DNA from: a virus
Reading direction: 5' to 3' (one strand)
IMG/VR virus record: IMGVR_UViG_3300020174_001259
Span: 1-24,952 of that record
DNA length: 24,952 nucleotides
Shown here: positions 834 to 24,719 of the stretch, in pieces
Layout of the letters: the number at the start of each line of letters is the position of its first letter
Position numbering within the stretch: the stretch's first letter is position 1
Translations under genes and position numbers: made by a program
The notes under the pieces: generated by a model
The model's database searches: none
What the model was told of the DNA's origin: nothing
What the model saw: only the letters and a program-made list of their open reading frames with translations

Positions 834-2426
834 ATGATTGAGAAAAAAATTTACTTTGGAGAGGACGCTTGGGAGAAAATCGTAAGCGGAGTACAGAAAT
901 TAGATGAGGCTGTTGGGTCTACTTTGGGTCCAAATGGTAGAACGGTTATCCTAGAGGACGACTTTGGCAATCCTCATGTAACAAAAGATGGTATTACTGT
1001 AGCTCAGAGCTTGGTGCTATCTGACCCTGTTGAGCACTTAGCAATGAGTACTGTTCGCCAGGCTTCTAAAAAAACAGCGCTTCGCGCTGGAGATGGAACT
1101 ACTTCGTCTATAGTTTTGGCTCATGCATTATTACGGATCATTGGAAAAAACCAAAGCGAAAATGCTAGTGTCCATGAAATCAAGAAGGGGGTTTACGACT
1201 GCATGAAGGAGGCTGTCAAGAGAATTAAAGAAGTTAGTCAAGACATCGACAATACAAAATTGAAGCAAGTTGCTACTTTATCGGCAAATGGCGATGAGTT
1301 TATCGGAGGTCTTATTGCTTCTGCATTTGAAAAGGTTGGTAAAGACGGTGTTGTTTCGGTTGAGGAATCGTACAACGAAGAGTCGTACATGACTTTGAAG
1401 GAAGGAACTAAGATTGACAGAGGGTATGCTTCTCATCACATGGTTACAGACCTCAACAAAAGAGAATTTTCAGTTAAAGATCCGCTTATTTTAGTTTGTG
1501 CTGCCGAAATTCAGGGACCTCAACAGATTTTGAGTGTTCTTGAGTTTTGTGCAAAGAACAACTTTCCAATCATTATCGTAGCAAACACAAGTGATGAGTT
1601 TGTTGCTACAATGATCTTGAACAATAGACAAGGAAGATTTAAGTCTTGCGTGGTTAATCCTCCTGGAATAGGATACAAGAGAGACGAGCTGCTTCAGGAT
1701 CTAGCGCTTATGACAGGGGCTGAGTTTATCAGCGAAGACATGGGAACTGACCTAGGGTCTATAACTCCTGATATGCTTGGTAGAGCCTCGAAGGTTGTTG
1801 TCAAGGAAGGGGAAACCGTTCTATTTATCGACGAGCAACCAGAGGAAGTTGACCAAATCAAAGCTCATTTACATGAGATGATGCAGGATATTAAAAACGA
1901 AGACCAGATGTGGCATTTAAGAGATAGGCTATCTAAGCTTACTGGAGGTGTGGCGACGATAAATGTTGGGGCTTCGACAGAAGTAGAGATGAAAGAGAAG
2001 AAAGACCGAGTGGATGACGCAATATCAGCCTCCAGAATAGCCTTAAAAGAAGGTGTTTTGCCAGGAGGAGGGGCTTTCTTGCTAAAATTATCGAAAAGAC
2101 TAAAAAAAGCATGGGATAAAGAAGCAAATTTAACAGATTCTTACAAAGAAGGATGGGGTTTTATGTGTAAATCGTTAGAAGCTCCTGTTAGAAGATTGCT
2201 AGATAACAGCTATTACGATGAAGATACTAAAAAAACCATCTTAATAAAGGTTTCAAGCTCAGATAACTTTATCGGATACAATGTTAAGAGCGAAAAAATA
2301 GAAGATTTGCTGGAAACTGGAATAATTGACCCTACGGCAGTTACCATAAACGTGTTAGAAAACGCCGTAAGTGTGGTTTCTGAGCTAATAACAACAGATT
2401 GTGTAATAACAAACGTAAGAGCATGA
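834..2426 (+). CDS. groEL: GroEL-type chaperonin (phage Hsp60)
   Basis: A 530-aa group I chaperonin alignable along its whole length with E. coli GroEL. It would form a ring that folds polypeptides using ATP in the cytoplasm. Nucleotide-site residues are kept: TLGPNGR at 30-36, D52 in KDGIT, GDGTT at 86-90 (D87), and D395 within RVDDA, matching the E. coli catalytic D398. VEMKEKKDRVDDA and PGGG are also conserved. In the apical domain the E. coli GYLSPYF segment reads GYASHHM (197-203), so Tyr203 and Phe204, which bind substrate and GroES, are His and Met here; the equivalents of L234 and L237 remain. The C-terminus stops at VITNVRA, without the usual Gly-Gly-Met tail. Its stop overlaps the co-chaperonin start (ATGA). 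It may fold virion proteins or supplement host GroEL. Confidence 0.97.
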   Translation: MIEKKIYFGEDAWEKIVSGVQKLDEAVGSTLGPNGRTVILEDDFGNPHVTKDGITVAQSLVLSDPVEHLAMSTVRQASKKTALRAGDGTTSSIVLAHALLRIIGKNQSENASVHEIKKGVYDCMKEAVKRIKEVSQDIDNTKLKQVATLSANGDEFIGGLIASAFEKVGKDGVVSVEESYNEESYMTLKEGTKIDRGYASHHMVTDLNKREFSVKDPLILVCAAEIQGPQQILSVLEFCAKNNFPIIIVANTSDEFVATMILNNRQGRFKSCVVNPPGIGYKRDELLQDLALMTGAEFISEDMGTDLGSITPDMLGRASKVVVKEGETVLFIDEQPEEVDQIKAHLHEMMQDIKNEDQMWHLRDRLSKLTGGVATINVGASTEVEMKEKKDRVDDAISASRIALKEGVLPGGGAFLLKLSKRLKKAWDKEANLTDSYKEGWGFMCKSLEAPVRRLLDNSYYDEDTKKTILIKVSSSDNFIGYNVKSEKIEDLLETGIIDPTAVTINVLENAVSVVSELITTDCVITNVRA

Positions 2427-7318: not shown

Positions 7319-9943
7319 ATGGCAAGAATATCTACTTACGCTCTCGATACTACCCCTAGTTTAACCGACCTCTGGATCGGAACTGATTCTGCTACGCAGC
7401 AAACAAAGAACTTTAGCGTAGATAGCATTGTAAATCTATTAAATGATAATTCATTAATAGATCAGTTTGATGGAGTTATATATGAGTATAAAACATTAGG
7501 CTCTGAGCCACAACCTTCTGGAATTTTAAATTTTTCTGGTCAAAACTCACTTCCCACGTCTGTAAATGCTGTAACAACAATATATCTCAGCAAGGTTAGC
7601 GGATCTGGAGATGTCGTAACTCAATACATACAAGCATTCGACCAGCACTATATTAAAATAAACCAACAGGGTAATTTAAATATATACGGTGTTTTCCAGG
7701 TCAATTCTGTAGAGAATCACGATTCCAACTATCTTTTATTGCAGGTAAACTTTATAGAAGGAAACGGAACTTTCATTCCAAGCGAAAGATTTTTTGTGTC
7801 TAATTACCAATCTGTAATAGACAAAGACTTTAGTGACGACTCTATAACTGAATTTGGAGATGTTACTAGTGCTGGCTCTGGAAAGATCATAACCGATCAA
7901 GAAAGAACAAACTACAACGAAATACACACAAATGGTCTTCGACATTCTGACGTAATAGACAATTTAATCTCTATTGGGTCAGACGTTCCTTTATCAGCGA
8001 ATCAAGGAAAGATACTAAAGGGCTATATAGACACGATAAATACGCTCTTATTAAGCGATAACGTTGATCTAGACTCATTACAGGAAGTAGTAGACTTCAT
8101 TGAGTTAAACAGAGATACTCTTGAGTCATTAACCATATCTAGTGTCGCAGGTCTTCAAAACGCATTAGATGAAAAAGTAGATAAGATTGCTGGAAAGCAA
8201 CTATCTCAAGAAGACTTTACTACAATATTAAAGTCTAAGCTAGACGGAATTGCTGCTGAAGCTGAGGTAAATGTTCAAGCAAACTGGGCTGAATCAATAA
8301 TAACCAATGACGCTTATATTCAGAATAAGCCAACAGATGTAACTGATTTATCTATTCATAATGCTACAGAGCTAAACGACATAAACAGCTCTGGTTCTGG
8401 ATATATAATCACAAATGCCGAAAGATCTAGAATAGAAGATGATTTGGTAGAAAAGACTCAAACGGTTACTGTTACTGGAACTGCTTCTGAAGTCACTGTT
8501 TCTCCAGATACACCTCAAGCATTAGACTCTAACATATCCTTTAACGTAGGACTTCCTGATGACGTCATTATAACAAGTGATTTGTCTGTTGGAGATAATT
8601 TAACCGTTGGTGGTTCAGCCACTGTTACTGGAGATGTTACTGGGGATGATTTAGTCGCTCAAAACATAATTAAGATCAATAACGCTCAAAATACTGAGCC
8701 AGCCATAGAGAATGGTATATATATAAAGCAAGAAGGTGTTCATGAAGAGATGCACTTCAGATACCATAACCATGATATAAGCTTAGCAACTCTTACAGAG
8801 GAGCTTTCTTCTGGTATACTATATGGAGGAGGACTAAGCAAAGCTAATGACACTCAATTTACCATACAAGCAGGTAAAGGTATTGTTGTAAATTTAAATA
8901 AAACAATTGCATCTGAGCCTCATCCTGAAATTAATTACGTTGAGTGGGATACTCAGACTATAGATATTTTTAATTTAGATCCACTAGACCCACAACAATT
9001 GAACTCTTGGATTTATATTGATGATAGTGGAACTATTAATCAGCAATTAGATCCGTTTACAGACGCACAATATCAAAATGCAATAACCATAGGGTCTGCA
9101 ATTCACTCAGAAGGAGTATTGAGATTTGCTAGAACTTTTCCTAAAACAGCTTATAGTAATTCAGATCAGTTTAGTTCTTTCATTAGAATGTTTGGTCCTA
9201 TCAAAAGATCAGGTCACAAAATATCTGCAAATGGAATTAACCTTTCATTAAACAGGGCTTCTGGTGTGTCTTTTGCTTTAGGAAGAAACTACAGTGTAAA
9301 TCCTAATTTTCCTTCAAATATTATAGACGGGGCTAAAAACCTAGCTGGAATACATAGGTATTATAAAGATGGATCTGGAGGATTCGTTAGGGATGACGGT
9401 CCAACAGGGCAGGGGTATGCCGTTATGGATCCAACCAAATTTGACAATGGGTCTGGAACTTTAGCTAATATGCCTAACAATAAATATTCCATACAGAGGG
9501 TTTATTTTTTCCCATCAACTCCAGATTTGCTTATAGTTTATTATGGAACTGACTATTACGATAATAAGGAGGTTGCCGAGAAAAGTATATTCTTAGAAGA
9601 GTTTGTTGAGGCTAACAACACTGCCGAACAGGCTATTCATGTTGCTACAATAGTAGTTAAAAAGGAAGCTGAGGATTTAAGCGCTGCAACCGACTCACAC
9701 ATATATCAGGCAGGATTATTTAGAAACCTATCCGCTAGTTTTTCTGGAGGAGTTGATGTTAACGCTGGTATTAATGATTTGTCAGACGTTTCTATAAACT
9801 CTCCGCAAGAAGGTCAGTCGTTGACTTATAACGCCGTAGATGGCGTTTGGACTAACGCAGCTGGAGGTGGAGGAGATTCTTCGAAAGAGGCGATATACCA
9901 CTTGGTTGGTCTGTCGGATATGTATTATGCACAAAACTTATAA
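7319..9943 (+). CDS. Tail-fibre-like virion protein (874 aa)
   Basis: The N-terminus MARISTYALDTTPSLTDLWI (followed by GTDSATQQTKNFSV) is a typical opening of phage fibre proteins and probably anchors it to the virion. Two copies of a pattern D(V/I)(T/N)S(A/S)GSGxIIT(D/N)xER lie near residues 180-195 and 355-370, with fibre-type motifs DSLQEVVDFIELNRDTLESL, AEVNVQANWAE and AYIQNKPTDV between them. A Thr/Val-rich beta-repeat zone follows (TVTGTASEVTVS, then VGGSATVTGDVTGDD). The distal half (about 480-800) looks globular and might bind the receptor. The C-terminus has LSDVSINSPQEGQSLTYNAV, another fibre-type repeat. No intramolecular chaperone or enzyme motif is recognised. Outer virion or host-recognition protein is a confident class; its exact place is unknown. 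Confidence 0.85.
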   Translation: MARISTYALDTTPSLTDLWIGTDSATQQTKNFSVDSIVNLLNDNSLIDQFDGVIYEYKTLGSEPQPSGILNFSGQNSLPTSVNAVTTIYLSKVSGSGDVVTQYIQAFDQHYIKINQQGNLNIYGVFQVNSVENHDSNYLLLQVNFIEGNGTFIPSERFFVSNYQSVIDKDFSDDSITEFGDVTSAGSGKIITDQERTNYNEIHTNGLRHSDVIDNLISIGSDVPLSANQGKILKGYIDTINTLLLSDNVDLDSLQEVVDFIELNRDTLESLTISSVAGLQNALDEKVDKIAGKQLSQEDFTTILKSKLDGIAAEAEVNVQANWAESIITNDAYIQNKPTDVTDLSIHNATELNDINSSGSGYIITNAERSRIEDDLVEKTQTVTVTGTASEVTVSPDTPQALDSNISFNVGLPDDVIITSDLSVGDNLTVGGSATVTGDVTGDDLVAQNIIKINNAQNTEPAIENGIYIKQEGVHEEMHFRYHNHDISLATLTEELSSGILYGGGLSKANDTQFTIQAGKGIVVNLNKTIASEPHPEINYVEWDTQTIDIFNLDPLDPQQLNSWIYIDDSGTINQQLDPFTDAQYQNAITIGSAIHSEGVLRFARTFPKTAYSNSDQFSSFIRMFGPIKRSGHKISANGINLSLNRASGVSFALGRNYSVNPNFPSNIIDGAKNLAGIHRYYKDGSGGFVRDDGPTGQGYAVMDPTKFDNGSGTLANMPNNKYSIQRVYFFPSTPDLLIVYYGTDYYDNKEVAEKSIFLEEFVEANNTAEQAIHVATIVVKKEAEDLSAATDSHIYQAGLFRNLSASFSGGVDVNAGINDLSDVSINSPQEGQSLTYNAVDGVWTNAAGGGGDSSKEAIYHLVGLSDMYYAQNL

Positions 9944-12441: not shown

Positions 12442-15400
12442 ATGGCTAACAGCTTATCTGATAAGGCGGTATATATATACGATATATTTTTTAGTGCAGA
12501 CATAACCTCTGGTAAGCTAGAGTCACAGCTAAAAAACTCATCTTTAAACAGGTTAGCTTTCGAGGAAGTTATATCGTATCCAAACTTATTGGATGCAATG
12601 AAGTCGCACGATAGATACGATGAGCTTATTGGAATTGAAACGTTTGCCTATACTTTAATATCGCAAAACGTTACAAGAGAGGAGAATTCTAAGCTAGAAT
12701 CTAACGCATATCTAGTAATCACAGACATATCTACTGATCATGATGATTTTAAAGCTTTCCTAAAAACCGTTTCAGGTCACATTGGATTTGGCTTGATAAT
12801 GAATAACGTTAAGACGGCTTACGATGTAGCTGGAAACGATCATGCTGTTTCGTTGATACTTAATAATGACGAGTCTATAAAAGCCTTGTTGAATAGTGAA
12901 TATGCATTAAAGGCTTTTGGTCAAACTCCAGCAGCTTCTGCCGCTATATTTCAAAATACCGAAATATTCAAAAGTTTAAGAACTAGCCTTTTGTTCGAGC
13001 AAAAAGATGAGTTGCCATCAACTTTAAGCTCTGATACTTATGTAGAATATATTGGAGGAAGGTATTTCACAAAGCCAAACGGCAGTCATTCCTACATGTA
13101 CATGTCTGAGGACATGATTAACTGGGAAACAATCGTTCATCCAGGATACAGTTTTAGTTATAGCCCTATTTTTGACACTATAGCTTACGACGAAATAAAT
13201 AAAGCTTGGTTTTTCATTAGCCGAGATTCTGGAGCACCCCCATTTTTTACAAAAGATTTTGTTACCTGGGAGAATGTAACTGCTTCTATGGGTAATGATG
13301 GATGTATATCTATAACAAACTTCAATAATAAAATTATAGTTAGTTATAGAGCCTCATCTAATAACTGGAGAACTGGGCAGATTAGCTACGCTGAAGGTCA
13401 GGCAGGATACACGTTAAATGACATTTCTATAATGCCAAACAATCTTGGCTATTATTACTTTAGAAAAGGTCATCCCGAATATTTGTTTATGGGAGACGGA
13501 AACCACTACTACAGGCTTTTAAACACCTCCTACGAGTACTCAACTAACTTCTGGGCTAATGACGCATCCTCAAGTTATAGGGGAATTAGAGGTATTTCTT
13601 GGGCTAATGACAGGTATTACTACACTCATTACTATTCAACTTCAGGTGACACTAGAATTGGGGTAGGGGTAATAAATCCTACCTTAGAGCATTTTCAGGG
13701 AGTCCATGATAGAAAACACTATTGGCTTCATTACGAAGGCACTGGTCATACTAGAGTTTTATACGCAAATGGAGTTTACATTACAAATGTTCCAGGTGGA
13801 TATGCAATTAGTTTAAATGGTTTTGTTTGGGATAAGAAGCTCTTTGATATCACTTATTCTTATAATTTAGGGGCTGTTGATCAAAGGGGGATAGTTGGAC
13901 ACATACCTTCTACTAGTTTTGTTTTGACTTCTTATGACGCAACAAGCACATTAATTGTAGAAGTTACTACAACCACAACTACGACTGCTGCACCTGCTGC
14001 TAATTTACCAGAATTCATAACTAATTTAAACTGTTTAGTTGACACTACTCAAGCTAGTGTTGTTGACTATAATGGTTTAAAAATGCTCTTCAACGGAGAG
14101 ACTGAGTATAAAAACACAAATTACGTATTGACTAATGGTCAATATAAAATATTAAATGTTCCTGAGCAATATCCTATAGCGGTATTGAATAAGGGAAAAT
14201 ACAATGCTATACATTACACTGGATTAAGCTCTAAAAGACACTTGATAAAAGTACGTGGAACTGAAGCTGACCAACCTTACGATTTTTTCTATGGAGACGT
14301 CACCATTAATGTCACTGGGAACTTCGGAAGGGTTAGTCTTTATTATTACAAGACTCCTGAAAACCAAGGTTATCTTGGAATGGAACAAATATTTGTTCAT
14401 CAAGACTACCTTTCTAATGGAGGGACAACAACTTCAGATGTTTTAAATACGGTTGCTAATACTAACATATATTCTTCTTCTATAAGAAACTTTGATTGCG
14501 TAGGCAATGAAGCTTTAGAGAAAGGAGAGGCTCCGTTAGTTGTTTATACCACCACAACAACAACAGATACTCCTTCATACACGGTACTAGCTCAGGAAAC
14601 AACAACCACAACAGAGGCTCCGTTTAATTATGGAGACGAAAACTATACTACGGCTATTGATGTTTCAACATCAGTTGCTCATGATGTGGCTTTAGATGTT
14701 AATGGTAAGCTTACTTTTGACGGAACTAGTTTGGAATCATTGTCATTGTCTGGAAGCAGACTATGTTTAGGAACTGGTACTTATATATTTAATGTGGCAG
14801 AAGACCAGCCTATAGCTATAGAAGGTGCAACGAGCTCTCCTTTTTTTGGACCTCAACACTCACGAATTAGTTACGCTGGAGACTTTTACAAAAGAAGCGT
14901 TAAATCTATAAATAATGTTCCTTATTATTTCTACCACGGACAAGTGATCGTTATTGTTGATGATATATTTTCAACAGTAAATCTTTATAGTTTCACTAAT
15001 GGCTATGCTGGAGGTGAAAATGGGTTTAGCTTTAGCCGAGTAACAACAACTACTACGGCAGCCCCAACAACAACCACAACTACAACTGATTCAAATCTTA
15101 CCTACACAAGATGTCTTGATTCTGATGTTTCGATAACTGTTGATGCAGGAAATCTTATACTAGATGGAGATCCACATAATGCAAATATTAAGTATGGATT
15201 GAACACGGGAGTAACTCTTTTAAGAAACGTTCCTCAATCACATCCAATTGCAATATTAAACTATGGTAAGTGGGATAAGATAAAATACTCTGGAAAAGGG
15301 TTAAGTAGTGTTTCTCACATTGCTCCAGATGGAAAACAATACTCGTATTTCCATGGAGATGTATTTATAACTGTATTGGGTGATTTTGGATTAGTTAGTT

Positions 15401-15975
15401 TTGATTGCGCTAATGACGGATACATGGGGGGTGAAAATAAATTAATATTCACCGATAACTGTTTCCCAAATGTAGCTCCAACAACAACTACCACTACAAC
15501 TGCTGATCCGTTATTTAATTACACCACTACAACTACAGGCGCACCTACAACAACAACAACAACAACGGCTGCTCCTACAACAACAACAACTACTACAGCT
15601 ACACCAACGGAAGCTGAGTTCTGCTTAATTAGTGGAGCTACAGGAAACACCGTTTCTTATGGAGGAGGAGAGTATGCTTTTAATGGAAATTCTGGATTAT
15701 ACGGAATGACCACGGGAACTTACACTTTTAAAGATGTAAGCGCTTCTCATCCAATAGCATTTTTGAATTACGGAAAAACTAGTAATGTGACTTACACTGG
15801 TCAATATGCTGTTGGAAACAAAACAGGGCTTGACGGAAATGAATATCCATATTACTATGGTAATGTTACAGTTACAGTGACTGGAGATTTTGATTTCCTT
15901 TCATACGAATGTTACTACCACGGCTACATGGGTGGCGAAAATAATATTATCTTTGATAACACAAATTGTACGTAA
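12442..15975 (+). CDS. Modular virion protein: propeller-like head, four repeat domains, poly-Thr linkers
   Basis: 1177 aa. Residues 1-190 are helical. About 195-510 looks like a beta-propeller, with blade-like motifs SEDMINW (222-228), TKDFVTW (270-276) and SLNGFVW (457-463). Then come four copies of a roughly 120-residue domain, joined by poly-Thr/Ala/Pro linkers (TTTTTTAAP type). The domain pattern is V-x2-(S)-(H)PIA-x-LNYGK, a YxYxHG strand, VTVTGDF and GYMGGEN. Copy 4 has H1103, C1157, H1160 and M1163 in C-x2-H-x2-M spacing, resembling a plastocyanin-type copper site. Copy 3 has H934, C989, D992 and M995; copies 1 and 2 lack the set (Y577; Q789, S850, N853, A856). Cupredoxin kinship is inference. 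Probably a surface-exposed virion protein binding host or sugar. Confidence 0.85.
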   Translation: MANSLSDKAVYIYDIFFSADITSGKLESQLKNSSLNRLAFEEVISYPNLLDAMKSHDRYDELIGIETFAYTLISQNVTREENSKLESNAYLVITDISTDHDDFKAFLKTVSGHIGFGLIMNNVKTAYDVAGNDHAVSLILNNDESIKALLNSEYALKAFGQTPAASAAIFQNTEIFKSLRTSLLFEQKDELPSTLSSDTYVEYIGGRYFTKPNGSHSYMYMSEDMINWETIVHPGYSFSYSPIFDTIAYDEINKAWFFISRDSGAPPFFTKDFVTWENVTASMGNDGCISITNFNNKIIVSYRASSNNWRTGQISYAEGQAGYTLNDISIMPNNLGYYYFRKGHPEYLFMGDGNHYYRLLNTSYEYSTNFWANDASSSYRGIRGISWANDRYYYTHYYSTSGDTRIGVGVINPTLEHFQGVHDRKHYWLHYEGTGHTRVLYANGVYITNVPGGYAISLNGFVWDKKLFDITYSYNLGAVDQRGIVGHIPSTSFVLTSYDATSTLIVEVTTTTTTTAAPAANLPEFITNLNCLVDTTQASVVDYNGLKMLFNGETEYKNTNYVLTNGQYKILNVPEQYPIAVLNKGKYNAIHYTGLSSKRHLIKVRGTEADQPYDFFYGDVTINVTGNFGRVSLYYYKTPENQGYLGMEQIFVHQDYLSNGGTTTSDVLNTVANTNIYSSSIRNFDCVGNEALEKGEAPLVVYTTTTTTDTPSYTVLAQETTTTTEAPFNYGDENYTTAIDVSTSVAHDVALDVNGKLTFDGTSLESLSLSGSRLCLGTGTYIFNVAEDQPIAIEGATSSPFFGPQHSRISYAGDFYKRSVKSINNVPYYFYHGQVIVIVDDIFSTVNLYSFTNGYAGGENGFSFSRVTTTTTAAPTTTTTTTDSNLTYTRCLDSDVSITVDAGNLILDGDPHNANIKYGLNTGVTLLRNVPQSHPIAILNYGKWDKIKYSGKGLSSVSHIAPDGKQYSYFHGDVFITVLGDFGLVSFDCANDGYMGGENKLIFTDNCFPNVAPTTTTTTTADPLFNYTTTTTGAPTTTTTTTAAPTTTTTTTATPTEAEFCLISGATGNTVSYGGGEYAFNGNSGLYGMTTGTYTFKDVSASHPIAFLNYGKTSNVTYTGQYAVGNKTGLDGNEYPYYYGNVTVTVTGDFDFLSYECYYHGYMGGENNIIFDNTNCT
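13963..15612 (+). repeat. Poly-Thr linker tracts (ACN repeats)
   Basis: Four clusters of ACN codons, around 13966-13990, 14550-14610, 15040-15090 and 15478-15610, encode Thr runs separated by AAP, DTP or ADP. In the last cluster the DNA is nearly a pure ACA repeat (15546-15566), so the run length could change by slippage without shifting frame. The runs separate the four repeat domains of the 1177-aa protein. Confidence 0.8.
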
Positions 15976-15988
15976 AAAATAACACAAA

Positions 15989-16465
15989 ATGGCAAGACAA
16001 GGAATTGATTTAGGAACCGCTGGAGACTTAAATACTGGCGACAACATAAGAGATGCATTCGATAAGGTTAACGATAACTTTGTTGAGGTTTACTCTGATA
16101 TAGTCAATCTACAGAATGATGACGCTAATGACGTAACTAAGGTTAATAACAGAACTGGAGACGTTGTTTTGGATATTAATGACGCAAAATATGCAGTTTT
16201 TGTAATTAGTGCTGATACAACTGCGGTTGCTGGTGGACTATATGTTCTTACCGCAAATCTAGTGTTGTCTTTGCCTGCTTCTCCTGCTGTTGGGGATAGT
16301 GTAAAAATATCAAACTTATCTCAGGTGGATACATGTACTCTTGCCAGAAACGGACAGTTGATACTAGGATCAGGATCTGATTTAACATTAGATAACAGGT
16401 ATAGCTCATTTGAGATGGTATTTACAGGAGCGTTAAAAGGTTGGGTAATAATCGGTCAAAACTAA
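15989..16465 (+). CDS. Short fibre-like virion protein (158 aa)
   Basis: The N-terminus MARQGIDLGTAGDLNTGDNI, followed by RDAFDKVNDNFVEVY, is a common opening of phage head- or tail-fibre proteins and probably binds the virion. VNNRTGDVVLDINDAKY is a fibre-type link, followed by a compact beta domain (LYVLTANLVLSLPASPAVGD, then LTLDNRYSSFEMVFTGALKG). At 158 aa it is a short fibre or decoration protein. It lies 13 bases after the large repeat protein and seven before the next gene. Confidence 0.8.
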   Translation: MARQGIDLGTAGDLNTGDNIRDAFDKVNDNFVEVYSDIVNLQNDDANDVTKVNNRTGDVVLDINDAKYAVFVISADTTAVAGGLYVLTANLVLSLPASPAVGDSVKISNLSQVDTCTLARNGQLILGSGSDLTLDNRYSSFEMVFTGALKGWVIIGQN

Positions 16466-16471
16466 TAAACT

Positions 16472-17380
16472 ATGGCGAATTTATCATCATTTTTTGGAGA
16501 CGCTCAAGGAAGCGGAGCTGACACCTCGTTAATAACAGACCCTAGAAAATTACCTATATCTCATAATAATAACCCATTATACTATAAGTATGGAGATAGC
16601 CATACTTGGCATGGAGACCATGAAAATGATTTTTGGTATTACTCTTATAACAACACAGGACAATCAACTAATGGGGATCCTTATACTGCACCTAGTGGGA
16701 GGACTAATACATTAGATAACGCTGGCACTTTAGTTTCTAGTACTACGTTTCCTAGATTAGGAGCTGATTGGAATCAATACGACTCTGCAACTTATGCAGG
16801 TGAGTGGATAACGATAATGGATCACTCTAACGAGGCTGGTAATTTGTGTTATGTAAAAGGGTTTGGAGCTAATCAAGCGACTTACGATTTAACCACAGGA
16901 GACAAACCTATTTCTAAGATTAGAATTACTGTTGATGGAAGTGCATATACATTTCAAGTTCAATTAAGAACTCATAATGACGTAAACTCTAGTACTTTAG
17001 GTTATCAGCATCCAGAATGGGGGCATTTTGGAAAAAGTGGTGCTTGGTATACTAGTTCTTATGGAGCTAGAGTTGGTAACTTTCCAGGAGCTGCATATGG
17101 TGACTTTGTTGATAGAAACTGGTTTAATTACGATCAAGAGGATGAATTTGGAGTTTATGACTGGAATTCTAGAGGAACTACATATCTATTACATCCGTCA
17201 TGGTTTGTTGAAGGAAGAAGACCTTCTGTAAGATATGAGAACAGTATCAAAGTAGAATGTGCAATCAATAAATATACCGACACAGTTACTAACGGCACAG
17301 GGTCAGCAGGGGTTGGTACTCACAGATACACTCATAGGGCATATGCAAAAAGAATTGTAGATCCTATAGTAATCATTTAA
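16472..17380 (+). CDS. Tip/adhesin-like protein, paralogue A (302 aa)
   Basis: Opens with MANLSSFFGDA, identical to the start of the following gene's product, and is followed by a Tyr, Trp, Gly, Asn and Asp-rich domain with many aromatic residues (for example DSHTWHGDHENDFWYYSYNN). A shared ITDxxKxP element near residue 20 and shared (P)(S/K)VR(Y/F)ENS(I/L)KVE near 250 show it is a diverged duplicate of the 284-aa protein. The composition suggests a beta-rich, ligand-binding virion tip. No enzymatic motif is recognised. Placement at the end of the fibre cluster fits receptor binding. Family unnamed. Confidence 0.8.
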   Translation: MANLSSFFGDAQGSGADTSLITDPRKLPISHNNNPLYYKYGDSHTWHGDHENDFWYYSYNNTGQSTNGDPYTAPSGRTNTLDNAGTLVSSTTFPRLGADWNQYDSATYAGEWITIMDHSNEAGNLCYVKGFGANQATYDLTTGDKPISKIRITVDGSAYTFQVQLRTHNDVNSSTLGYQHPEWGHFGKSGAWYTSSYGARVGNFPGAAYGDFVDRNWFNYDQEDEFGVYDWNSRGTTYLLHPSWFVEGRRPSVRYENSIKVECAINKYTDTVTNGTGSAGVGTHRYTHRAYAKRIVDPIVII

Positions 17381-17391
17381 AAAACAAACTC

Positions 17392-18246
17392 ATGGCAAAT
17401 TTATCATCATTTTTCGGAGACGCAGTCTCTTCAGGAACATCTTCTGAAATAACAGATGCGTCTAAAATACCTTTTCGAGCTACATTTACACCAAATTATG
17501 TTTTGAATGGAAGCAACTCAACCTATCACGATGGACAAGATACTTTTTGGAACACTGCTGATTACAATGGTTCTGGAGGAGGCGCATCAAGATTGTTTCA
17601 ATCAAACTTTGTTCAAGACACTGCTGGAGTTGCAGATACATGGCTAACCATTACAGACGTCACAAGCAAATCAGGATATTGGTGTTGGGCAACTGGCTTT
17701 TCTGGTCATTTAATTTCTGATTGGGGGACTACTCCTGTACACTCTTCTTTAAGAATAACTATCGATGGCACGGCTTATACTAGAGGTGCTGACTTAATTA
17801 GATCTGACTGCAACACTGCATCTAACCTAAGCTGGTGCCGTCCTTTTTGGGGGTGGACTGCTGAAAATGATTCGAATATTCAAAATCACTACTATCAAAG
17901 TTGGGCTGCTCTATCTGGTCCATCTGGTAGAATGACTCAACCTATAATTAGGAGTGGCGAGATGTCTAATATGGTTGGAGGAACAACACCATCAAATTTA
18001 GGAACACCAGATGTTTTTTATGCTCATCAAACTACTTATTTAAAAGGTAGGGACCATTACGAAATGTGGGGTTTGCCAAAAGTTAGGTTTGAAAATAGCT
18101 TGAAGGTAGAGGCTAAAATAAGCGTTCCACACCCTTCAATTGCAGCAGGTACAAACATTGGAGGAGCAACGCCTACCACAAATCAACATTATTATTCTGA
18201 TCACGCTTATAGCTATCATTATTACGATACACCTGTTACGATTTAA
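17392..18246 (+). CDS. Tip/adhesin-like protein, paralogue B (284 aa)
   Basis: Paralogue of the preceding protein: the same MANLSSFFGDA start, EITDASKIPF near residue 20, SSLRITIDGTAYTRGADLIR in the middle (compare SKIRITVDGSAYTFQVQLRT) and KVRFENSLKVEAKI near the end. The middle regions differ strongly, as expected when receptor-contact surfaces diversify. It is rich in Trp, His, Ser and Asn with a His/Tyr-rich tail (HYYSDHAYSYHYYDTP). No signal peptide or catalytic site is seen. The DNA of the first 30 or so bases is nearly identical between the two genes. Confidence 0.8.
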   Translation: MANLSSFFGDAVSSGTSSEITDASKIPFRATFTPNYVLNGSNSTYHDGQDTFWNTADYNGSGGGASRLFQSNFVQDTAGVADTWLTITDVTSKSGYWCWATGFSGHLISDWGTTPVHSSLRITIDGTAYTRGADLIRSDCNTASNLSWCRPFWGWTAENDSNIQNHYYQSWAALSGPSGRMTQPIIRSGEMSNMVGGTTPSNLGTPDVFYAHQTTYLKGRDHYEMWGLPKVRFENSLKVEAKISVPHPSIAAGTNIGGATPTTNQHYYSDHAYSYHYYDTPVTI

Positions 18247-18954: not shown

Positions 18955-19169
18955 AACACATTAGAAAAATATCTGTAGGAGCAAACTACAAGGATGCTAT
19001 GCATTATATGATCGACCAGCAAGTTATGGGGGGCGATTGGACAATACACGCTGTTACACAAGACGATCTTAGCTATAATGTATGGATACAAAAAGGCGAT
19101 GAAATTAAAAAATGGAAAGAATTCAATAAGAATATGCCTATAACAATCGAATATAATGTCAACTTTTAA
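18951..19169 (+). CDS. Small conserved phage protein (72 aa)
   Basis: Starts on the ATGA overlap with the previous gene. The sequence MKHIRKISVGANYKDAMHYM, then VMGGDWTIHAVTQDD, NVWIQKGDEIKKWKEFN and the ending MPITIEYNVNF follow a pattern I remember from many marine phages, in which the protein is always short and uncharacterised. It looks like a small alpha/beta fold with no membrane segment. Its end overlaps the next gene by 14 bases, so it is tightly coupled to it. Function unknown. Confidence 0.8.
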   Translation: MKHIRKISVGANYKDAMHYMIDQQVMGGDWTIHAVTQDDLSYNVWIQKGDEIKKWKEFNKNMPITIEYNVNF

Positions 19170-19716
19170 TCCATTACAAAAGTTTTTAATTACACCTAGC
19201 GGAAACTCAGAATACAATAGAGAAAAAAAAGGAGTAATAGTAACTTCTTCTATAGAAAATCACAAAGACGTAAACCGAATTGGTAGGGTTGAAAATGTTC
19301 CTATAGACTATGACGGAGAGATATCTATTGGAGATCTAGTTGTTATTCACCATAACGTCTTCAGATCTTACTACGACATGAAGGGTTATGAGAGAAAAAG
19401 TAGGGAGTATTTCAAAGATAATCTGTATCTTGTAGATTTAAACCAAATATATCTTGTTAAGAAAAATAATAACTGGAATAGTTTTGATCATTTTTGTTTT
19501 GTCACTCCGAAGAAGGAGGCGCAAAAAATGGTTACGCTAGGAGATTATGAATCTAACCAGGGCTTTGTGTCTTATTCAAATAAAGACTTAGAGGCTAGAG
19601 GGATAAGCGAGGGAGATGAAATCGTGTTTGTTGATGATAGTGAATACGAATTTGAGATAGACGAAGTAAAGATGTATCGAATGAAGACTAATGATATTTG
19701 TATTAAATTAAATTAA
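19156..19716 (+). CDS. Putative double GroES-fold protein (186 aa)
   Basis: Two regions follow the GroES barrel order. Residues 8-70: QKFLITPSG, a loop, KKGVIVTSS, IGRVENVPI and ISIGDLVVIHH (compare GroES VIVKR, GGIVLTG, RGEVLAVG, VKVGDIVIF). Residues 135-186: QGFVSYSN, GISEGDEIVFVDD, and the closing EVKMYRMKTNDICIKL (compare EVLIMSESDILAIVEA). The middle is variable. The reading as two fused co-chaperonin-like barrels is inference from motif order and not a clear homology; I recall similar unnamed proteins in marine phages. A role in virion assembly, perhaps with the phage GroEL, is speculative. It overlaps the previous gene by 14 bases. Confidence 0.7.
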   Translation: MSTFNPLQKFLITPSGNSEYNREKKGVIVTSSIENHKDVNRIGRVENVPIDYDGEISIGDLVVIHHNVFRSYYDMKGYERKSREYFKDNLYLVDLNQIYLVKKNNNWNSFDHFCFVTPKKEAQKMVTLGDYESNQGFVSYSNKDLEARGISEGDEIVFVDDSEYEFEIDEVKMYRMKTNDICIKLN

Positions 19717-19792: not shown

Positions 19793-20069
19793 AGAAACCA
19801 TAGAAAGAGTCATTGCTGCTGGAGAAAAGGCGGTAGAAGAGCTTATTAAGGTTGCTCATGACGAAATCATTACTGACGATCCAGAACAGGATTTGGCTGC
19901 GGACAGACTTAAAAATGCAGCTGCAACTAAGAAGCTAGCGATCTTTGATGCTTTTGAAATACTGAATAGAATTCAATTAGAGAGAGATAAGTTAGAGAAT
20001 AATGATGAATCACAAGACAAAAAAGACGTCGGATTCCAGAGCTTTGCAGAGTCTAGAGGAAGAAAATAA
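19776..20069 (+). CDS. Conserved protein in small-terminase position
   Basis: I choose the ATG at 19776 (MSKDIKETIERVIAAGEKAV, 97 aa); a TTG at 19764 would add four residues. The protein is almost all helix: KAVEELIKVAHDEIITDD, then DLAADRLKNAAATKKLAIFD, AFEILNRIQLERDKLE. The NAAATKKLAIxDAFEIL stretch is a pattern I remember from unnamed genes just upstream of large terminases in Bacteroidota phages. The size, helical nature and position suggest a small terminase or packaging accessory, but no DNA-binding motif is visible. It overlaps the terminase gene by 68 bases in another frame. Confidence 0.7.
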   Translation: MSKDIKETIERVIAAGEKAVEELIKVAHDEIITDDPEQDLAADRLKNAAATKKLAIFDAFEILNRIQLERDKLENNDESQDKKDVGFQSFAESRGRK

Positions 20070-22293
20070 CAATCTATTTACGTATATAGATGTTGTTTCT
20101 GAAGAGGATTTAAGCAGAAGGAATAAAGAGAAATCGTGGGATTATGGCTATGATCGAGAATCTGATCTAGTAGTTATTTCTAAGACTGGTCAAATTGGTA
20201 GGGTAATTAATATAAACGGATTAAAAATTGCATTACCTTTGCAGCCAAAAAAAATCCATGAGCGAAGCAAGGAAAAATCCCAGCAATTCTGGGAAGAAGC
20301 AGAGTACCCAAATCAACTATTCAAAATCAAGACCATATTCCAGTGGAATAGCATGCCGTCCTCATTCAAAGAGTCATGGATTCCTTACATTGAAGATGAG
20401 TTCGAGAGAAGAGAGAGTGGTTATTGGTTTAAAAATAATGGCACACCTACTTATATTACTGGCAGCCATTACATGTATCTACAATGGACAAAGATAGATG
20501 TAGGTAAACCCGACTTCAGGGAATCAAATAGGATATTCTTTATTTACTGGGAGGCATGTAAAGCTGATCAAAGATGCTATGGATTATGTTATCTAAAAAA
20601 CAGGCGTTCAGGTTTTAGTTTTATGGCTTCTGGAGAGACCGTAAATCAAGCAACGGTTACGTCTGATGCTAGGTTTGGTATTTTATCAAAAACTGGATCT
20701 GACGCTAAGAAGATGTTTACCGACAAGGTTGTGCCAATATCAACAAACTATCCTTTTTTCTTTAAACCCATACAGGATGGTATGGACAGACCGAAGACTG
20801 AGCTCGCATACAGAGTTCCAGCCAGTAAGCTAACAAGAAAAAGCATCGAGGATATAGACAGCGTAGAGGATTTGACTGGTCTTGACACTACAATTGACTG
20901 GAAAAACACAGGAGATAACAGTTATGATGGAGAGAAGTTAAGGCTTTTGGTTCATGATGAATCTGGTAAATGGGAAAGACCTGATAATATACTCAATAAC
21001 TGGCGTGTAACAAAAACCACTTTAAGACTAGGAAGGCGAGTTATTGGAAAGTGCATGATGGGATCTACCTCTAACGCTTTAGATAAGGGTGGAGACAACT
21101 TCAAGAAGTTATTTTACGATTCTGATCCTCAAAACAGAAACTCAAACGGACAAACAAAAAGTGGATTATACTCTTTGTTCATACCAATGGAGTGGAACAT
21201 GGAAGGTTTTTTAGACTGCTTTGGACATCCAGTATTTAAAACCCCAGAAGAACCCGTTGTAGACGTAAATGGCGAGAACATATTTCAGGGGGTTATTGAT
21301 TATTGGGAAAATGAAGTTGATTCATTAAAGAACGATCCTGATGCCTTAAATGAGTTTTATAGACAATTTCCTAGGTCAGAAAATCATGCTTTCAGAGATG
21401 AATCAAAAAACAGCTTGTTCAATCTACAGAAAATATACGAGCAAATAGATTATAACGATACTATTGGAGTAGAATCCCTAGTAATGAAGGGTGATTTTCA
21501 TTGGGAAAATGGAGTTCGTGATAGCAATGTTGTTTGGACTCCATCTAGAAACGGAAAGTTTCATGTAACCTGGCTTCCTCCAAAAGAGCTTAGAAATAAC
21601 GTTATTCGTGAAAACGACACCTTTGCTCCAGGAAACGCACACATTGGCGGTTTTGGATGTGATTCGTATGACATCTCAGGCGTAGTTGGTGGTTTTGGAT
21701 CAAAAGGAGCTTTGCACGGTCTAACTAAAATTAACTTTGATAACGCTCCTTCGGAGATGTTTTTCTTAGAGTATGTAGCTAGACCTCAGACAGCTGAGCT
21801 TTTTTATGAAGATGTTTTGATGGCTATACATTTCTACGGAATGCCTATTCTCGTGGAGAACAACAAGCCAAGGATATTATATTATCTTAAAGAGAGAGGA
21901 TATAGGAAGTTCTCGACTAACAGACCAGATAAAATAAAAAACGACTTATCGAAAACAGAAAAAGAACTAGGAGGAATACCTTCCTCTTCTGCCGTCATAT
22001 CTATACACGCAGAGGCTATAGAAGCTTACATAGAGAAAAACGTTGGAGTAGATGTTCTTGGGTCCTATAGAGATCCTGGATCAATGGGTAAGGTTTATTT
22101 TATGAGAACATTAAAAGATTGGTCTAACTACAACATATTTAACAGAACAAAATACGATGCAACTGTAAGCTCTGGCTTGGCTATAATGGCTAATCAGAGG
22201 TTTGTAAACAAGCCTGTGAAAAAGCATAACAAAATAAGTGTTAAATTTGCAAAGTACAATAATACAGGCTTGAATAGTGAAATTTTAGGATAA
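20002..22293 (+). CDS. terL: Terminase large subunit
   Basis: 763 aa, the ATPase-nuclease that packages DNA into the head through the portal. Motifs: an adenine/Walker A-type KNRRSGFS (199-206) with deviant Walker A spacing; Walker B hydrophobic strand LLVHDE (315-320, D319 and E320); coupling motif GSTSN (354-358). The RNase H-fold nuclease shows D554 in FGCDSYD, E619 in ILVENN and D719 in TKYDA as likely metal ligands. Length and the ELAYRVPASKLTRKS segment recall crAss-like phage terminases, from memory. Starts at 20002 or 20005 are both possible (ATGATG); the gene overlaps the upstream gene by 68 bases. The portal follows five bases after its stop. Confidence 0.93.
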   Translation: MMNHKTKKTSDSRALQSLEEENNNLFTYIDVVSEEDLSRRNKEKSWDYGYDRESDLVVISKTGQIGRVININGLKIALPLQPKKIHERSKEKSQQFWEEAEYPNQLFKIKTIFQWNSMPSSFKESWIPYIEDEFERRESGYWFKNNGTPTYITGSHYMYLQWTKIDVGKPDFRESNRIFFIYWEACKADQRCYGLCYLKNRRSGFSFMASGETVNQATVTSDARFGILSKTGSDAKKMFTDKVVPISTNYPFFFKPIQDGMDRPKTELAYRVPASKLTRKSIEDIDSVEDLTGLDTTIDWKNTGDNSYDGEKLRLLVHDESGKWERPDNILNNWRVTKTTLRLGRRVIGKCMMGSTSNALDKGGDNFKKLFYDSDPQNRNSNGQTKSGLYSLFIPMEWNMEGFLDCFGHPVFKTPEEPVVDVNGENIFQGVIDYWENEVDSLKNDPDALNEFYRQFPRSENHAFRDESKNSLFNLQKIYEQIDYNDTIGVESLVMKGDFHWENGVRDSNVVWTPSRNGKFHVTWLPPKELRNNVIRENDTFAPGNAHIGGFGCDSYDISGVVGGFGSKGALHGLTKINFDNAPSEMFFLEYVARPQTAELFYEDVLMAIHFYGMPILVENNKPRILYYLKERGYRKFSTNRPDKIKNDLSKTEKELGGIPSSSAVISIHAEAIEAYIEKNVGVDVLGSYRDPGSMGKVYFMRTLKDWSNYNIFNRTKYDATVSSGLAIMANQRFVNKPVKKHNKISVKFAKYNNTGLNSEILG

Positions 22294-22298
22294 CCAGC

Positions 22299-24719
22299 AT
22301 GTTAAGAAACGATTTTAAAGTAGCAAACATTTCTTTTCCAGATCAGCTGGCTGCTGATGCTCAGAAAGAATCTAAGGAATTTGGTCTTACAGTTGGTAAG
22401 GCAATTGAGTCTGAATGGTTCAGGAAGGACAATGGAGCTGCTAGATTCTATAACAACAGGGATAATTTCCATAAGCTTAGAATGTATGCTAGAGGAGAGC
22501 AATCTGTTCAAAAATACAAGAATGAGCTTGCTATAAATGGAGATACATCATATCTCAATTTAGATTGGACTCCAGTTCCTATTATTCCTAAGTTTGTAGA
22601 TATTGTTGTCAATGGAATGACAAATAGACTTTTCGATATAAAAGTCGAGGCTGTAGATGATCTTGCTCAAGGAAGAAGAGTTAACTACAGAGAAGAGATC
22701 GAAAAGGATATGCTAGCAAAACCAATGCTTGAGGAGATATCTTCTAAAACTGGTGTAAATGGATTCGTAAATGATCCTGCAACTTTACCAGAATCAGAGG
22801 AAGAGTTAGAGCTTCACATGAAGCTTTCCTATAAGCAGAGAATAGAAGTAGCCGAAGAAAAAGCCTTAGAGGGTATATTAAATATAAACGACTACGAGCT
22901 AATAAGAAAAAGATTAAATGAAGATGCAACTGTATTAGGTATACAGTCTGTAAAGCACACATTCAACACTCACGACGGAATCAAGGTAGAATATGTAGAT
23001 CCAACAAATATAGTTTTTAGTCCTACTGAAGATCCTAATTTTGATGACTGCTATTATTTTGGAGAGGTCAAGAATGTAAACATTACTGAGTTAAAAAAGA
23101 TAGACCCTTCTCTTTCTCAAGAAGACATTAAGGAGATATCGAAACTTAGTTCTAAATGGGATGCTTATCAAGGAATAAGAGGCGGATACAAAACCGACAA
23201 CTTTGATCAGAATACCGCAACTCTACTTTATTTCTGTTACAAAACAGACAAAGAGATAGTATATAAGGTGAAAGAAACTCCTGTTGGCGGAAAAAGAGCT
23301 ATTAGAAAAGACGATAGCTTTAATCCTCCGCAAAATGAGCAGGTTAAATTTGAAAAACGATCAAAAAGAATAGATGTATGGTACGAAGGTGTACTTGTTC
23401 TCGGAACAAATTTTGTCCTGAAGTGGGACTTGATGAAAAACATGGTTCGACCAAAGTCGGGGATTCAGAAAGTTTACCCTCCGTACATTGTAAGTGCTCC
23501 AAAAATTTACAGGGGTCAGATCGACTCTCTAGTGAAGAGAATGATTCCGTTTGCGGATCAGATACAACTATCTCACCTTAAACTACAGCAAGTCATTTCC
23601 AAAATGATTCCTGATGGGGTTTATTTGGATTTAGACGGAATAGCAAGTGTTGATCTTGGTAACGGAGCTGTTTACAACCCTAATGAAGCTTTAAACATGT
23701 ATTTCCAGACTGGAAGTGTTGTAGGAAGAAGCTTTACTGAGGATGGAGAGTATAATAATGCAAAAATACCAGTTCAAGAACTTACTAGCACTGGCTCAAA
23801 CGCAAAAATACAATCTTTAGTTAGCATGTATAATCATTACATGCAAATGATTAGAGACGTCACTGGAATCAATGAGGCTAGAGATGGATCAATGCCAAGC
23901 GAGAGAACTCTTGTTGGAGTTCAAAAACTAGCTGCTTTAAACTCAAATACAGCGACTAGACATATATTAGAGTCTGGATTGGCTGTTACTTCTAAATTAG
24001 CCACAGCTCTATCTTATAGATTTTCTGATTTACTGGAATATAGCGAGATGAAAGATAGCTTTAGTTCTATCATCGGAAAAAACGCCATGAATATACTAGA
24101 GGATATAAAAGACCTTCATATTCATGACTTTGGCATCGAAATAGAATTACATCCAGATGAAGAAGAAAAGAATGTTCTAGAGTCTATGATTCAAATTGCA
24201 TTGCAAGGAGACAAAATAGACTTAGAGGATGCTATAGATATTAGAAACGTAAGAAACATCAAGCTAGCCAACGCTTTATTAAAAGTTAGAAAAACAAGAA
24301 AAGAGCAGGATGACTTGAAGATCAAGCAAGCTAATATAGATATGCAGACTCAATCTAATGTTCAATCAGCCGAAGCTGCATCACAATCAGCTATTAAGGA
24401 GATGCAATTTAAGTATCAAAACGAAATGGAGTTTGAGAAAGGCAAATCTATGCTTGAGATACAAAGAATGGAAAAGCAAGCTGAGTTAGATCTGATGATT
24501 TTAAAACAAAAGCTACAATTTGACCAGCAATTAAAGCAGATTGAGCAAGAGGGAATATCCTCTAGGGATCAGGCTAAAGAAAAGGCAAAAGACGATAGGC
24601 TTGACAAACAAAGCACACATCAAGCTGAATTAATACAGCAAAGAAAACAAGACACTAGCCCAAAAGACTTTATGGGATCTCAAAACACAGATGAGATGAT
24701 GGACCAAATTATGGGCTAA
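22299..24719 (+). CDS. Portal protein
   Basis: 806 aa, following the terminase by five bases, the standard order. The core (about residues 60-640) has portal-like features: a VPIIPKFVDIVVNGMTNRLF helix near residue 90, a PPYIVSAPKIYRGQIDSLVK helix near 390-415, SKMIPDGVYLDLDG, and a stem/crown region with GINEARDGSMPSERTLVGVQ (about 522-541). The long C-terminal third is a highly charged coiled coil (about 665-785; Gln, Glu, Lys rich, such as KIKQANIDMQTQSNVQSAE) ending DEMMDQIMG. Size and the coiled-coil extension recall crAss-like portals, from memory. It forms the dodecameric ring at the head vertex and should bind the terminase and tail. Confidence 0.88.
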   Translation: MLRNDFKVANISFPDQLAADAQKESKEFGLTVGKAIESEWFRKDNGAARFYNNRDNFHKLRMYARGEQSVQKYKNELAINGDTSYLNLDWTPVPIIPKFVDIVVNGMTNRLFDIKVEAVDDLAQGRRVNYREEIEKDMLAKPMLEEISSKTGVNGFVNDPATLPESEEELELHMKLSYKQRIEVAEEKALEGILNINDYELIRKRLNEDATVLGIQSVKHTFNTHDGIKVEYVDPTNIVFSPTEDPNFDDCYYFGEVKNVNITELKKIDPSLSQEDIKEISKLSSKWDAYQGIRGGYKTDNFDQNTATLLYFCYKTDKEIVYKVKETPVGGKRAIRKDDSFNPPQNEQVKFEKRSKRIDVWYEGVLVLGTNFVLKWDLMKNMVRPKSGIQKVYPPYIVSAPKIYRGQIDSLVKRMIPFADQIQLSHLKLQQVISKMIPDGVYLDLDGIASVDLGNGAVYNPNEALNMYFQTGSVVGRSFTEDGEYNNAKIPVQELTSTGSNAKIQSLVSMYNHYMQMIRDVTGINEARDGSMPSERTLVGVQKLAALNSNTATRHILESGLAVTSKLATALSYRFSDLLEYSEMKDSFSSIIGKNAMNILEDIKDLHIHDFGIEIELHPDEEEKNVLESMIQIALQGDKIDLEDAIDIRNVRNIKLANALLKVRKTRKEQDDLKIKQANIDMQTQSNVQSAEAASQSAIKEMQFKYQNEMEFEKGKSMLEIQRMEKQAELDLMILKQKLQFDQQLKQIEQEGISSRDQAKEKAKDDRLDKQSTHQAELIQQRKQDTSPKDFMGSQNTDEMMDQIMG

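Follow-up and report, generated by a model that had tools for sequence, protein, structure and literature searches.

A predicted cupredoxin-like domain with a type-1-copper-like ligand set in a putative tail protein of an environmental phage

The window, which is the whole stretch of DNA analysed here, is a virus record of 24,952 bases. The gene for a 1177-aa protein sits amid tail-fibre-like and baseplate-connector-like genes, with the terminase and portal genes located downstream (Table 1). Based on these structural-module neighbours and on relatives in which the same domain is fused to a crAss_MUZ_C region, Mtd_N or YHYH, the 1177-aa product is a putative phage tail/virion protein. The nearest named terminases were those of MW202828 (a podovirus that carries groEL and has a P22-like portal) and of Flavobacterium and Cellulophaga phages, and the host of the window phage is therefore likely a Bacteroidota bacterium. 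The window groEL and groES-like genes lie approximately 17 kb apart; in MW202828, groEL adjoins a 10-kDa chaperonin gene. Two further neighbours (16472-17380 and 17392-18246) had no family match, share the start MANLSSFFGDA and resemble diverged tandem paralogues.

Table 1. Positions of the genes in the window and of the parts of the 1177-aa protein.
Feature	Position	Strand	Remark
groEL	834-2426		window gene
Tail-fibre-like gene	7319-9943		phrog_19602 match
1177-aa putative tail/virion protein, four domain copies	12442..15975	+	ORF; residue numbering verified
N-terminal region, aa 1-508	12442..13965	+	no family match
Domain copy 1, aa 531-658	~14032..14415	+	ligandless: Y577, then Y, Q, L; strongly conserved
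Domain copy 2, aa 745-868	14674..15045	+	ligandless: Q789, S850, N853, A856
Thr-rich linker, copies 2-3, aa 868-882	15043..15087	+	
Domain copy 3, aa 891-1007	15112..15462	+	H934, C989, D992, M995; three of four ligand kinds
Thr-rich linker, copies 3-4, aa 1014-1056	15481..15609	+	in part coded by tandem repeats
Domain copy 4, aa 1061-1176	15622..15969	+	full H-C-H-M; flanked by C1061 and C1176
H1103 codon, first predicted ligand	15748..15750	+	two residues ahead of a strand
C1157-x2-H1160-x2-M1163, predicted amicyanin-type ligand loop	15910..15930	+	
Baseplate wedge/tail fibre connector-like gene	15989-16465		N-terminus matches phrog_677
groES-like gene	19156-19716		window gene
Terminase large subunit	20002-22293		window gene
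Portal	22299-24719		window gene

The four domain copies of the 1177-aa protein were detected by the family profile with E-values from 1e-25 to 1e-39. A first-pass annotation of this DNA had named 13 residues at the ligand positions of the four copies, from Y577 to M1163, and all of them were found where it had placed them (Table 1). The span that it gave, 14641-15975, holds copies 2 to 4, while copy 1 lies upstream of it. Including its N-terminal strand, the domain unit runs from Cys to Cys, as from C1061 to C1176 in copy 4. The bracketing cysteines are absent from copy 2, which evolves fast. For the N-terminal region, S-x-D-x-x-x-W blade-like repeats were suggested by inspection only, and searches of Pfam, PHROG and the named phages produced no match. 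The linker between copies 3 and 4 contains imperfect tandem ACAACA repeats as coding DNA (window positions 15529-15608). The Thr-rich tracts vary in length among related phages, and since this linker is coded by ACAACA repeats its length may vary through repeat slippage.

The fold of copy 4 was predicted twice. The first model, built from 20 short sequences, was mediocre with a pLDDT of 80, and cupredoxins made up 14 of its 20 best PDB rows as weak matches. The second was an AlphaFold2 model without templates, made from a phage-only alignment of 45 sequences that included the N-terminal Cys strand. It was all-beta with nine strands, a pLDDT of 96.1 and a pTM of 0.89. A Foldseek search of this model against the PDB showed that 46 of the 50 best matches were cupredoxins or cupredoxin-domain enzymes, and the other four were one peptidase, SO1698. 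Amicyanin topped the small-protein matches with a probability of up to 0.99, and the better amicyanin matches had a TM of 0.51-0.55 (by target length) at an rmsd of about 4 Å. The E-values ranged from 0.006 to 0.2 with none below 0.001, and for this reason a cupredoxin-like fold is claimed for copy 4 as a prediction, with homology not proven. At fold level only, the model agrees with the Greek-key beta-sandwich of seven to nine strands of cupredoxins. The strand register agrees as well: H1103 lies two residues before model strand 49-52, C1157 ends strand 96-101, which is the next-to-last strand, and H1160 and M1163 lie in the loop ahead of model strand 113-115. The first-pass annotation had compared copy 4 with cupredoxins by its ligand kinds; a fold other than cupredoxin-like did not appear in the model, and this comparison gained support for both the fold and the ligand set, with metal binding as a prediction.

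Sequence comparison with known cupredoxins by phmmer, hmmsearch and hhalign yielded no significant match (hhalign probability 0.2%), and the PDB sequences held no sequence match to the domain. The PF00127 Copper-bind profile did not match any of 45 family members or the window, although it matched the control genomes. Homology by sequence is therefore not claimed. The domain resembles plastocyanin and pseudoazurin (PF00127) in its fold match and in the same four ligand kinds but not in the loop, which is C-x2-H-x4-M in those proteins. The closest likeness is to amicyanin (1AAC), which shares the nine strands, a His before a strand and a C-terminal-loop C-x2-H-x2-M (PMC12723479). Amicyanin differs from the domain in having no detectable sequence similarity to it, Asn rather than Pro after the first His and no pair of N- and C-terminal cysteines. 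Moreover, amicyanin is a soluble electron carrier, whereas the domain stands in tandem on Thr-rich linkers in a predicted phage tail protein. P-SSM2 was considered as a carrier of the domain from a weak structural match, and a profile search of it gave no match.

Searches of IMG/VR produced 65 loci with copy 4 as the query and 203 loci with the copy 4 alignment, of which 80 were kept. With ligandless copy 1 as the query, only near-identical contigs were recovered. No Pfam or PHROG model was found for the domain family. Named phage genomes showed no match by tblastn with the domain or its consensus, while the positive control worked, and a motif-pattern scan of bacterial and archaeal genomes found no relative. 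A total of 119 distinct copies with both halves of the site were collected from environmental viral contigs. His, Cys, His and Met were all present in 104 of the 119, so that the four-residue set pointed out in the first-pass annotation exceeds chance. Exactly three cysteines, namely the bracketing pair plus the ligand Cys, were found in 91 of the 104 intact copies, a pattern expected if the domain is extracellular and has a single disulfide together with a thiol that serves as metal ligand. The site thus appears to be a family-wide feature of putative environmental phage tail proteins, unnamed in the libraries searched (Pfam and PHROGs).

The set has both the order and the secondary-structure register of the type 1 copper pattern, His ... 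Cys-x2-His-x(2-4)-Met. The first-pass annotation was correct that C-x2-H-x2-M departs from the C-x2-H-x4-M of plastocyanin; the spacing is not odd, as it is that of amicyanin. In the 1AAC sequence the residues H53, C92, H95 and M98 were verified to form C-x2-H-x2-M, and these are the copper ligands of amicyanin (PMC12723479). An Asn (or Ser) after the first His, which is common but not universal in type 1 copper proteins, was not found. Pro follows the first His in practically all 104 intact copies and Asn does so in the five cupredoxins aligned, amicyanin, plastocyanin and pseudoazurin among them. This Asn shapes the copper site, and its change to Ser in amicyanin gave a lower copper-site stability and a higher potential (PMC12723479). 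By sequence, the Pro is a real departure from cupredoxins.

Motif-based scans are biased to copies with the full set (HCHM), and therefore a ligand-blind scan was run with the pattern DGNxYx[YF][YF]xG[DN]xT, which contains no ligand residue. At least 96 copies had this stretch. Among the matches listed, 89 were HCHM, three were truncated at the first His and four were changed, with ESSL in L188 and L293 (near-identical), NSQL in L262 and HGGM in L263. The ESSL and NSQL copies belong to single-copy proteins. The ligand-blind pattern had a single match among bacterial and archaeal genomes, which lies in a contig of an Aliivibrio MAG. The suggestion in the first-pass annotation that such domains are widespread was borne out for environmental phages by the IMG/VR relatives and by these ligand-blind matches.

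The 15 non-HCHM copies among the 119 kept few of the ligands (first His in 2/15, Cys in 1/15, second His in 0/15 and Met in 2/15). All 15 kept G1092, G1120, G1140 and Y1162, and most of the remaining invariant columns were each kept by nine to 14 of them; exceptions near the site were Y1155 (5/15) and N1168 (4/15). The first His and the Cys, 54 residues apart, agreed in 118 of the 119 copies (Fisher p 2e-16, with kinship ignored). A tree computed with the ligand columns removed requires at least four changes of the first His and at least five of the Cys. There were three well-supported independent pairs, too few for a sign test, and Cys and Met followed the first His in nearly every pairing. 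On the aligned sequences, the ligands are lost jointly with the scaffold kept in at least four lineages, some of them detected by the ligand-blind scan, and usually all four ligands go together. Four residues spread across 60 positions that are kept or dropped jointly behave like one site, and a single functional (metal) site would be the simplest reading. It is quite improbable that the four residues instead serve to bind the host as a conserved surface, or to stabilise the fold as a cluster, within a beta-sandwich of cupredoxin-like or immunoglobulin-like type. Such a role would agree with the loop residues Y1162 and G1164, which are invariant too and kept in most ligandless copies, and with a fold match that stays under strict significance. 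However, all four ligands vanish together with few other invariant residues while the scaffold stays, a simple surface patch poorly explains why a His and a Cys separated by 54 residues are lost jointly, and a lone reduced Cys without a partner would be unlikely on a virion surface.

In four related phages, each of the four copies formed its own clade with supports of 99, 99, 93 and 98, and the fourfold array therefore predates the split of these phages. Copies 1 and 2 had none of the four ligands in all four phages and copy 4 was intact in all four. Copy 3 was intact in L003 and in L004/L005, HCDM in the window and ATFS in L072. A sequencing error at D992 is unlikely because further contigs (L001/L002) carry the same copy 3. 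Identity across the phages was 67-81% for copy 1, 69-78% for copy 4 and 40-63% for copies 2 and 3. Copy 4 showed low dN/dS where dS was measurable, dS being saturated in many pairs. As copy 1 is conserved as well as copy 4, it has been kept in ligandless form and is no relic. This contradicts one of the two readings offered in the first-pass annotation, in which a metal site had decayed copy by copy. Its graded ligand set holds for copy 3, which lost ligands in two of the four phages, and not for copies 1 and 2, which are ligandless throughout; the decay picture fits copy 3 only. That the ligand set of the window protein is decaying as a whole, with chance alone keeping it in copy 4, can be given very little credence. 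The ligandless copies 1 and 2 and the partial or complete loss in copy 3 in two of four phages point in that direction, but copy 4 is intact in four of four phages at the identity and dN/dS given above, and 104 distinct intact copies occur across many protein contexts.

Probably, copy 4 today and copy 3 in its ancestral state are cupredoxin-like domains that hold a type-1-copper-like His-Cys-His-Met set at amicyanin spacing and are carried on a tail/virion protein. The four residues would very probably bind one metal ion, and copper is the most likely metal, on the whole a probable one. C1061 and C1176 would pair as a disulfide, which would free C1157 as a ligand, and the domain would be an extracellular module strung along flexible Thr-rich linkers. 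The metal might stiffen the C-x2-H-G-Y-M-G-G loop (CYYHGYMGG) for host contact or serve as bait, although either role is doubtful. The ligandless copies would keep the fold; they may serve as spacers, or be binding domains for which metal is no longer required. Electron transfer is unlikely because a redox partner is not expected on a free virion, and a redox role is not assumed.

It is unlikely that the site binds zinc or iron rather than copper, with a purely structural or receptor-bait ('Trojan horse') role. The identity of the metal does not follow from the ligand kinds alone, the first His lacks the neighbouring Asn, and the H-C-D-M of copy 3 fits zinc at least equally. Met is a poor zinc ligand. 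The Met of the site is nevertheless invariant in all 104 intact copies, and His-Cys-His-Met with an amicyanin loop in a cupredoxin fold makes up the classical set for copper. HxH iron sites have been reported or predicted in tail fibres, such as T4 gp37 and that of alterophage R22Y, with a proposed role in host attachment as a metal bait (PMC11705849). The likeness to them lies in the metal in a tail protein, which is predicted here. Those fibres are trimeric and hold iron by paired His, whereas the window domain is a single-chain beta domain with His-Cys-His-Met.

Other proteins carry the domain as well. In 75 of 144 domain-bearing ORFs, a common C-terminal region matched crAss_MUZ_C (PF25729; 60 bits, cut-off 27), the C-terminal domain of the crassvirus muzzle. 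The muzzle of PhicrAss001 is located at the tail tip (PMC10172136). In comparison with the crassvirus muzzle, the cupredoxin-like domain is an added N-terminal module, and a muzzle domain is missing from the window protein. A 1507-aa ORF in contig L050 combines Mtd_N, fn3, YHYH and cadherin with the cupredoxin-like domain within about aa 1-1000. YHYH is a predicted zinc-binding tail domain (PMC7824862), and L050 would hold two predicted metal domains within one putative receptor-binding protein. The crAss_MUZ_C and Mtd/YHYH fusions support the predicted virion-surface role. Structural matches in BFVD were R4TIA3 (unnamed), A0A076FH44 (Aureococcus anophagefferens virus) and A0A5B8IDC5 (YHYH protein, Mimiviridae sp. 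ChoanoV1), with E-values from 4e-9 to 6e-5 and 26-35% identity; these are structurally alike and differ in that the domain is embedded in other proteins. Based on these matches, the domain is probably also present in large algal/protist viruses. Its occurrence with crAss_MUZ_C and Mtd/YHYH, in large-virus relatives and in the Aliivibrio MAG contig argues that it is a module that moves among virion surface proteins.

The sequences and models suggest that some virus particles carry metal. With slightly less than an even chance, the domain represents a widespread, unnamed family of copper-binding cupredoxins in environmental phage tails, and perhaps in large algal viruses, whose particles carry type-1-like copper. 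The copper would then shape the adhesive loop or exploit copper-handling surface proteins of the host. Metal in phage tails has hitherto been discussed mainly as iron on HxH fibres. In the literature searched, no report was found that places a cupredoxin site on virus particles, no paper was found pairing 'cupredoxin' with 'tail fiber', and nothing relevant appeared on cupredoxins in phages. If true, a copper-type site encoded in many environmental phage tails would represent a new type of metal site in virions and would bear on trace-metal cycling and phage attachment. The domain is one 120-residue unit with natural ligandless copies as controls, which makes it cheaply testable.

Some domain-bearing contigs showed further features. 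In L065 (aa ~368-615), the domain is interrupted by a second small domain with its own His-Pro and C-x2-H-x2-M (SSHPFFVYAN ... YYQCSNHSIM), possibly a domain nested in its own relative; with this short domain as the query, no wider family was found. In L077 (1273-3781), O-fucosyltransferase-like and Nol-like carbamoyltransferase genes lie just upstream of the muzzle-like gene that carries the cupredoxin-like domain. By eye, a cyclophilin-like stretch (FFHRSLPPMP...LIQGGGY) was seen in a 2122-aa ORF of L058 with two domain copies, and a stretch resembling formylglycine-generating or sulfatase-modifying enzymes follows the domain in an 833-aa ORF of L064.
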